From the NCBI RefSeq assembly GCF_048128805.1, contig NC_136000.1, forward strand, positions 9,225,354 through 9,289,353: a stretch of DNA of 64,000 bases, in the 5' to 3' direction. Source of the stretch: Centroberyx gerrardi. Taxonomy: Eukaryota > Chordata > Actinopteri > Beryciformes > Berycidae. Positions 39,597 through 50,497 of the stretch are shown piece by piece; the stretch's first letter is position 1; each line of letters begins with the position of its first letter. Under the pieces are notes generated by a model. That model was not told where the DNA came from. It saw only the letters and a program-made list of their open reading frames with translations, and searched no databases. The translations under genes were made by a program, and so were the position numbers.

Positions 39597-42500
39597 ATGC
39601 CTGAGTCTCCTCTCAGTCCCACAGCAGCCCGTCAAACCCCAGCCAGCAGCCTCCTCAGTCACACAGACAACGGTACAGGAGAGAGACTAGCTAATGGGGA
39701 CTCCTGCAGTGGAGTGAGCGCCGAAAACTGGCAGAGTCTCCAGCATAAACAGGTATCTTCATCCTCCTCCTCGTCCTCCCCCTCACCCTCCTCTTCTTCC
39801 TTCGTCTCTTCCTCCTCTTCACAAGCGGGAAATAGAACAGCGTTAGGTAAACAGATGTCAGGAGAAATACTGCACGTCAACTCCATATTGGACGTCCTCT
39901 GACAGGACAGCGAACCCAGTGCCTGCAGCTCTGTTGACAGTGGCAGGGATTTCATATGAGATCTGATCCGAGTTGGGAGTTGACACGCAGGACTCTGTTT
40001 GTCCTTCATTATTAGTTTGTGAGTCAGGGCCAGGGAGAAATAATTGTCCACAGACCTAGGCCAAATAGATGCAAGTGAAAGGCAAATAAGCATGGCCCAA
40101 CATAATTTTATGGTTGTCTGTTACAATTCCCTCGCTGGGAATCTTAATCTAGGGGATCAATGAAACAACTGAGATAATGGACGCATGGTCACCCCCCCTT
40201 ACCTTCGTTCTGTTCTCATCTTGTCAGTTTTTATTCTTTTCTTCATTCACTTTCAAAACCTACATCTGGCCTTCAACTTGTGAGCCTACAGGATATTGTC
40301 AGAAATAAAGGAAAAATGATCCCCTCCCACAGTGAAAGGCTCTGGTACTGCTGCACTGGTGTGAGGTAAATTTTCAAGCATGTTTTTTTGTAATTTTCTA
40401 TTAACAAAGTGATTGCAAGTGATAATGTCAACGACACTACCGCTGCATCCTTGCCTGGCTGCCAGTGTGTGACTCCATTCAAAGACATAATAATTCCCTG
40501 TGATATGAAAGATTTTTCTTCACCCCAAAAACTCACATTACAAATGAAGACTATTGATGGTGAGGACTGGTTTTCTCTCATAATACAAGAGAAGGGCCTT
40601 CATCCCTAATGCATTTCTTTTCTGAGTGTAGCATCCAATCAACGAGGCACAAATGGTCACCCAGTAGTTTGAAAAGCATGATAATGAAGCCAGCTATACA
40701 TCAATGCCTTCTTTATAACCAGATGCAATAGCAGATTCAGGAATTGAGTCTAAGACACACCAAGTGTAAGACCAAATCATGCCTGAAAAAGCAACTCATT
40801 ATAGCGCCTGTGCCAAACAGAAAATCCTTCATGTTGGTGTTTCTGCTGTTCTTAACTTTTCATCTAAAAACTTGAGTTCTCACTGATCAGCACGGTGGAA
40901 ATCGTGGCGGTATTATCTCAAAGGACTGTGATGATGAGGATGACAAACCTGAGGTCCCAGATGTGTTCTTCTTTCATTACATCCTGCAAGCAGCTGAGAT
41001 ATTACTCCAGCACAGACACGAGGGTATTCTGAAACCCACCAAGAGCAACATCTAGTCACAGCCCCTGCACATACATGTCTGTATATGGCGATATACGGCA
41101 GTTGAGATTTTATGGCAAGAATCAAAGCGGGTTCTTCCAAAAAGAGATATCTGTCATTTGAAATAAAGTGGCATCTACTCTTACAGAATGATTGACAGCA
41201 CAACGTTAAAACAATTCATGGTACTTTTTGAAGAACAGTAGGTAACTTAAATTTTTTGTTGACAAAATGACACTTTTACTGACTGGATCCTCTATAGTTA
41301 AGATATACTGAATGATAAACTATAGGTAATGATTTTTTTCCCCCCCCAAACTGAATATAGAGCATCTGAAAACAAACTCTTCAATTGCTAAATTGTATTT
41401 TCTTTCCAATAATCAATCTGCAACAGTCATGTTATTTGTATAGTATTGTTTGTAATATGTGTTATTTGAATTTGTTACTGGCTTTTGTTATTCCTTAATG
41501 CAGCCTCAGACTAAATGGACTTGTTTGGAATAATTCAGTCATGGCAATTGCCATAGCCTCTGCTGCAATATGAAAGGAGACAACCATTCTGTTATTTGTC
41601 ATTCAATCAGTAACAGTGCAGATCAGTTATTATTCTGCGAGTGTTTGCCTTTATTAATATCCATACACTTCTATTAGGAGTCACAACAAGCATGTAATTG
41701 TGTTGCTAATTAACTGGTCAACCTATCTCCCATCTCATTTAGGGTCAATGACACAATCTATCATGATGATGTTCACAAAAGGTTGACAGCATTGTGTTGT
41801 AATTGGATTGGAAGACTTCCCATTCGATGGTTATTACTGTTTAACACTTGACACTTGCCTCGTCTCTCTCTCCCCTTGGCTCTGTGGACTCAACGTCTCT
41901 CATGTTCCCTCGCTCCTCTTCTTTGCTGCAGGTCTTCCTGGCCATGATGGCTCCTCAGCAGATGCAGCAGATCCTGTCCCCCGGCCAGCTGCAGGCTCTG
42001 ATCCACCAGCAGCAACAAGCCCTTCTGCTCCAGCAGGTAAAACACCGCTGCACCTGGTAAACTGGAGTTTTAGTTACAAACATTTCTCAGAGGCAGAAAT
42101 GATCACATTGGTTGAGTTAAACCTCAATGTGTGGAGTAAAATATTCACAGTTTTTCTGGCTAAGTAATGTTAGAGTGAAGCCATAAAGGGCAAGGAGTGG
42201 AGAGGAGGAATCTAATGTTATCAAGCTTAGCGCTCTTGCTACTAACTGACATTTTTTTTAATCTTGTTAAAAGTTATCTAGGTTAGCTAGTTAGCCTAGC
42301 TGACCTTCCAAGTTCAAACTAGCCATACTAGCTTCTAGTAGGTAAACTAGTTAGCTAGCCTGCTCACCTTCCAACATCAAGAATGCCATGGTCATGAATG
42401 AAATAAAAAAGAAGTCATTGCCATTTATATTTTCTATTTACATTTTAAACAGAGTTCCTTCTTTGTCATTCGAGATCGCCAGTTTGGTAACTTGAAAACT

Positions 42501-50497: not shown

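Follow-up and report, generated by a model that had tools for sequence, protein, structure and literature searches.

A probable second foxp2 gene (foxp2b) in the fish Centroberyx gerrardi, with conserved domains and a dead exon 3

According to Song, Wang and Tang, euteleosts such as medaka, tilapia, and Tetraodon carry two FoxP2 genes, FoxP2a and FoxP2b, and zebrafish is without FoxP2b (PMC3857310). In medaka FoxP2b, the regions outside the domains were described as truncated, and omega in the forkhead data set was 0.139 for FoxP2b versus 0.030 for FoxP2a. The authors reported relaxed selection on FoxP2b, plus positive selection in the ancestor of Neoteleostei. They also inferred the changes S520A and S532N for the neoteleost FoxP2b ancestor, placed E519D before the duplication, and reported inserts in exon 16 of FoxP2a (PMC3857310). 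Because of this description, the existence of a second fish FoxP2 and its relaxed evolution are known since 2013, and a retained second foxp2, which the sequence-only reading of the present locus put forward as a notable natural experiment on FoxP2 function, is not new. The same reading had zebrafish keep one foxp2, in agreement with Song et al. A word search of their main text gave no occurrence of “CtBP” or “exon 3”. Among the papers listed in a literature search on foxp2b, no other concerned the fish duplicate as judged by title, and little follow-up on it seems to have appeared since 2013.

Studies on human FOXP2 have described sites that bear on co-repressor recruitment. The PLNLV motif of human FOXP2 resembles the CtBP-binding consensus and is conserved in FOXP1 and not in FOXP4, and FOXP4 was reported not to bind CtBP1 (PMC5126810). 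According to the same report, binding of CtBP2 may require no more than residues 259–329 of human FOXP2, all from one exon, and human FOXP2 can bind CtBP without PLNLV. The C-terminal SUMO site of FOXP2 is VKEEP, a KEPE motif; as stated by a figure title in the paper describing it, cell assays showed no effect when the main SUMO lysine was lost (PMC4751435). What the present locus adds to the published FoxP2b is a dead exon 3, the loss of PLNLV, a decayed CtBP2-binding exon, and a degraded KEPE/SUMO motif.

The stretch of DNA analysed here, called the window, comprises 64,000 nucleotides of Centroberyx gerrardi (C4:9225354-9289353) from a genome of 779 Mb in 278 contigs. It contains a complete FoxP gene with 15 coding exons in a single open frame (Table 1), and all 14 introns are of the GT-AG type. 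A retro-copy origin was rejected because of these 14 introns. Pfam matches were obtained for the FOXP coiled-coil (E 1.8e-34) and the forkhead (E 6.3e-27); the coiled-coil with its C2H2 finger and the forkhead both exceed the Pfam cut-off, as in members of the FoxP subfamily. Two donors are possible in the eighth coding exon. The donor after 46774 yields a protein of 588 residues and the donor after 46720 one of 570 residues; the latter occupies the position homologous to that in foxp2a, the conserved copy on contig C24 described below, and gives an exon of 28 codons (84 bases) with the same length as in foxp2a. The figure of 588 versus about 715 residues given in the sequence-only reading therefore holds with the later donor, but the shortness is in part not special to this gene, because ray-finned fishes have 3 glutamines where human FOXP2 has a long tract (PMC5126810).

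Table 1. Positions of the features at the foxp2b locus and of the other FoxP loci (window positions unless a contig is given)
Feature	Position	Strand	Basis or remark
tmem168	14538..15770	-	C24 copy 65 and 63% identical
bmt2 (samtor)	18346..18999	-	Pfam Bmt2 19.3 bits, just below cut-off of 20
Long open frame, presumed to be the large final exon of ppp1r3a	28376..31879	-	Position; Pfam search of this frame without match
ppp1r3a, exon with carbohydrate-binding module	33952..34791	-	Pfam CBM_21; C24 copy 54% identical
Intronless forkhead gene, putatively FoxQ2-like	35745..36782	+	Pfam Forkhead E 4.1e-31
foxp2b coding region (putative)	39597..50497	+	Open frame, GT-AG introns, Pfam FOXP-CC and Forkhead
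foxp2b exons 1-5 of 15 coding	39597-39752, 41932-42036, 42836-42919, 43727-43820, 45065-45239	+	
foxp2b exons 6-10 of 15 coding	45705-45809, 45933-46020, 46637-46720 (or -46774), 47630-47816, 48351-48421	+	
foxp2b exons 11-15 of 15 coding	48537-48638, 48741-48862, 49537-49603, 50110-50252, 50368-50497 (stop)	+	
Exon 3 fossil, not coding	40981..41070	+	Between first and second coding exons
Counterpart of human CtBP2-binding exon, strongly changed	45065..45239	+	Against human sequence: window gene 24/55, foxp2a 58/71
Two exons with zinc finger and first part of leucine zipper	45705..46020	+	Block residues identical to foxp2a 18/24 and 24/29
Exon with end of zipper	46637..46720	+	Earlier donor gives 84 bases, equal to foxp2a
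Exon opening with LSSA where foxp2a has LNLV	47630..47816	+	PLNLV lost
Three forkhead exons	48351..48862	+	84/88 identical to human FOXP2 2a07
Last exon, LKEEA replacing VKEEP	50368..50497	+	Core of SUMO site retained, proline of KEPE gone
MDFI-family (mdfic-like) exon, strongly diverged	60351..60713	+	Pfam MDFI 25.6 bits, E 1.4e-5, just below cut-off of 27
foxp2 (foxp2a), conserved	C24 near 14.70-14.75 Mb		Read from DNA
foxp1	C5 near 29.35 Mb		Name from block resemblance and tree
foxp4	C5 near 23.07 Mb		Name from block resemblance and tree
foxp1-like gene	C14 near 18.41 Mb		Label weakly supported (block resemblance and tree)
foxp3	C14 near 24.34 Mb		Name from block resemblance and tree

Comparison with the other FoxP genes points to the FoxP2 class. 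A PDB search with the window gene gave human FOXP2 (2a07) as the best match, followed by FOXP4, FOXP1, and FOXP3, and the forkhead was identical to these proteins at 84/88, 71/84, 71/85, and 64/85 positions, respectively. The four differences from human FOXP2, counted by hand in human numbering, are V503I, S520A, R523M, and K582R, and both R553 and A539 are kept. This numbering agrees with the one used by Song et al. Trees were built from six FoxP genes of this genome and the four PDB forkheads. The branch holding the window gene, foxp2a, and FOXP2 against FOXP1, FOXP3, and FOXP4 had a support of 92.8/98 with the conserved blocks and 96.1/95 with the forkhead alone; the split of the window gene and foxp2a from human FOXP2 had modest support (76.4/79 and 78.7/88). 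No clustering with foxp1 or foxp4 was observed. By these sequence comparisons the window gene is assigned to the FoxP2 class, grouping with FOXP2 rather than with FOXP1, FOXP3 or FOXP4, and the sequence-only reading was correct on both the class and the forkhead residues. That the gene belongs instead to FoxP1, FoxP3 or FoxP4 draws on the common FoxP domains only; the forkhead identities, the tree, the FOXP2-type neighbours, and the separate foxp1, foxp1-like, foxp3, and foxp4 loci of the genome leave such an assignment a negligible chance.

A search of the whole genome with the finger, zipper, and forkhead revealed at least six FoxP loci; the count is a minimum, since scoring covered the best 94 candidates. 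One of them, on C24, is a foxp2 with a forkhead 86/88 identical to human FOXP2. It is surrounded by ppp1r3a, tmem168, and an MDFI-family gene; when C24 is read backwards, tmem168 (-), ppp1r3a (-), foxp2 (+), and MDFI (+) follow each other in the order and orientation of the window. The names ppp1r3a and tmem168 are presumed, the latter also being that of the sequence-only reading, and the long open frame next to ppp1r3a is by its position presumed to be the large last exon of that gene. The window MDFI exon scored 70.5 bits against the MDFI gene linked to foxp4 and 63.9 bits against that on C24, so its pairing with the C24 gene rests on position; the exon was absent among the matches of the genome-wide MDFI search. 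As an observation on this exon, which lies 3' of foxp2b, its Pfam score of 25.6 bits compares with 143.9 for the C24 MDFI gene. A genome search for bmt2 gave a single match, the window's own, and none on C24, so bmt2 is of no help as evidence for a paralogon. The linkage to ptdss2 was likewise rejected as such evidence: matches to the PSS family at C4:9220315-9227096 make the linkage itself look real, yet of the 13 such matches in the genome search C24 holds none. The arrangement of ppp1r3a, tmem168, and the MDFI-family gene does support a paralogon.

Two expectations of the sequence-only reading, a second and conserved foxp2 beside a second ppp1r3a and mdfic and the presence of two tmem168 copies, were borne out on C24, whereas its argument from ptdss2 failed. 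The conserved C24 foxp2 and its mirrored neighbours indicate that the window gene is a duplicate and not the sole foxp2. No point was found in favour of the opposite reading, namely that this is the only foxp2 of the fish and that fish foxp2 has simply diverged. It is contradicted by the far better conserved C24 gene (forkhead 86/88; 507/589 over 14 shared exons), which has a ppp1r3a, a tmem168, and an MDFI-family gene beside it, and these neighbours also speak against C24 being a contig from another organism; its likelihood is close to nil. With a probability of about 0.9, the window gene is the foxp2b of this fish, one of a pair of copies that goes back to the teleost-specific (3R) genome duplication, the other being foxp2a on C24. 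We infer the 3R date from the published work and the gene block. A blastn comparison of window positions 38000-58000 with 50 kb of C24 revealed no conserved non-coding sequence; eight of the nine matches overlap coding exons, and the ninth comprises 25 bases on the other strand.

The two copies have diverged from human FOXP2 to very different extents. Identities were counted against a human FOXP2 sequence over the 14 exons common to the window gene, foxp2a, and human; the 50 kb of C24 did not yield the first coding exon of foxp2a, so exons 2 and 3 do not enter the totals. The window gene was identical to the human sequence at 314/511 positions and foxp2a at 507/589. Within the window gene, two forkhead exons showed 39/40 and 32/34 identical positions, and flanking exons 22/61, 18/48, and 15/41. 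In a three-way alignment with 518 ungapped columns, the window gene had 148 private changes and foxp2a had 8, which gives a Tajima chi-square of 125.6. On 166 positions of the conserved blocks, the corresponding ratios were 13:3 with foxp1, 10:6 with the foxp1-like gene, and 5:3 with foxp3 as outgroup, and 9:2 of 101 positions with foxp4, a comparison without the finger and the last forkhead exon, which were not found in the N-containing foxp4 stretches. Only the foxp1 and foxp4 outgroups passed the 5% level (chi-square 6.25 and 4.45), and the rate difference is weak with the other two. Over 164 domain codons, pN between the window gene and foxp2a was 0.066 and pS 0.64, corresponding to a corrected dN of 0.069 and dS of 1.41, the latter near saturation; the estimate is rough. 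The stretch from exon 4 to the end spans 8,566 bases in the window gene versus 34,078 in foxp2a, i.e., about a quarter. The second glutamine tract, with 10 glutamines, is kept in foxp2a and absent from the window gene. On these counts, the finger, zipper, and forkhead of the window gene are under constraint, and the regions outside have changed far faster than in foxp2a. The strong divergence outside the domains noticed in the sequence-only reading is therefore real; its term “relaxed” fits these regions but not the domains, which are constrained (dN about 0.07, dS about 1.4). In foxp2a itself, exon 16 (C24; stretch L039 positions 5120-5432) carries a repeated glycine/proline-rich insert with GGSPPGLM-like units, in the same exon in which Song et al. 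have reported FoxP2a inserts (PMC3857310).

Between the first and second coding exons of the window gene lies a fossil of exon 3. It matches exon 3 of foxp2a at 51/90 bases and is the best ungapped position for that exon on both strands of the window, the next best having 42. When the intron was resampled 300 times with a first-order Markov model, the highest amino-acid score was 29, against 33 for the fossil; elsewhere in the 64 kb window, a single unrelated position (34508) ties with it. The splice dinucleotides of the fossil are gone, and it contains an in-frame TAG. Loss of the exon keeps the frame because it has 90 bases in phase 0. The dead exon 3 and the strongly diverged flanking regions would be expected of a decaying pseudogene; yet the 15 open exons, the 14 GT-AG introns, a pN in the domain codons about tenfold below pS, and a frame unbroken by the exon 3 loss make decay of the gene as a whole very improbable.

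The sites related to CtBP and SUMO have also changed. Both foxp2a and the C5 foxp1 have LNLV at the start of the exon next to that with the end of the zipper, with the P codon at the junction; the window gene has LSSA instead. Like FOXP4, the window gene is a FoxP without PLNLV, but in its forkhead residues, its neighbours, and its place in the tree it is a FoxP2 and not a FOXP4. Compared with vertebrate FOXP2 and teleost FoxP2a, it has the same finger, zipper, forkhead, neighbours, and exon order from exon 4, and it lacks exon 3, PLNLV, and the KEPE proline, while exons 4-7 and 16 are shrunken. Because PLNLV is lost, the CtBP-binding exon has decayed, and LKEEA stands for VKEEP, weaker recruitment of CtBP may be suspected. 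The dispensability of PLNLV in human FOXP2 (PMC5126810) and the lack of an effect of losing the SUMO lysine (PMC4751435) speak against this. One tentative mechanism, to which we give somewhat less than even odds, is that FoxP2b has kept its binding to FoxP sites and its dimerisation, both with itself and with other FoxP proteins, and that its recruitment of CtBP is weak. It would then repress only weakly, or would compete with foxp2a and foxp1 and so temper them. It is more doubtful whether FoxP2b, with its dead exon 3, lost PLNLV, decayed CtBP exon, and domains under selection, could be a co-repressor-poor, natural antagonist of FoxP2a at shared sites. If true, evolution would have parted the DNA binding of FoxP2 from its CtBP-dependent repression, and a copy that kept binding and dimerisation but lost CtBP recruitment would make both functions separable for study in the vertebrate brain. 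Instead of relaxation, FoxP2b may have gained a new function, its sequence outside the domains having changed under positive selection once the duplication had taken place. Song et al. have found positive selection on FoxP2b in the Neoteleostei ancestor besides relaxed selection (PMC3857310), which favours this alternative, though on balance it is less likely than not to be the explanation here.

With the FoxP2b of euteleosts, the window gene shares the duplicated block, the kept forkhead, the shortening outside the domains, the faster evolution, and S520A. It differs in the absence of S532N and E519D, the latter being present in the C24 foxp2a. The absence of S532N and the distribution of E519D fit the inferences of Song et al. 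poorly and count against the identification as foxp2b.

An intronless forkhead gene of 345 codons from stop to stop lies 2.8 kb upstream of foxp2b on the same strand. Its best match other than itself among 51 genome matches was 48% identical, which makes it an orphan class in this genome, and it is putatively FoxQ2-like. A report of December 2025 has concluded that bony fishes kept FoxQ2I and lost FoxQ2III, a gene that it found near FoxP genes in amphioxus, lamprey, and skate (PMC12828049). The forkhead gene of the window may be a surviving FoxQ2III or an ordinary fish FoxQ2I; in the former case the reported loss in bony fishes would not be general.

Observations were also made at the other FoxP loci. 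At C14:18403001-18412000, a compact foxp1-like gene is followed about 4 kb downstream by another MDFI-family gene. No LNLV was found in this foxp1-like gene within the 9 kb searched, and the gene may be another fast-changing FoxP duplicate. In the C5 foxp1, the normal last forkhead exon is accompanied by another version of itself (stretch L042 positions 4320-4421), which is presumably similar to the alternative exon found in the FOXP1 form of stem cells.
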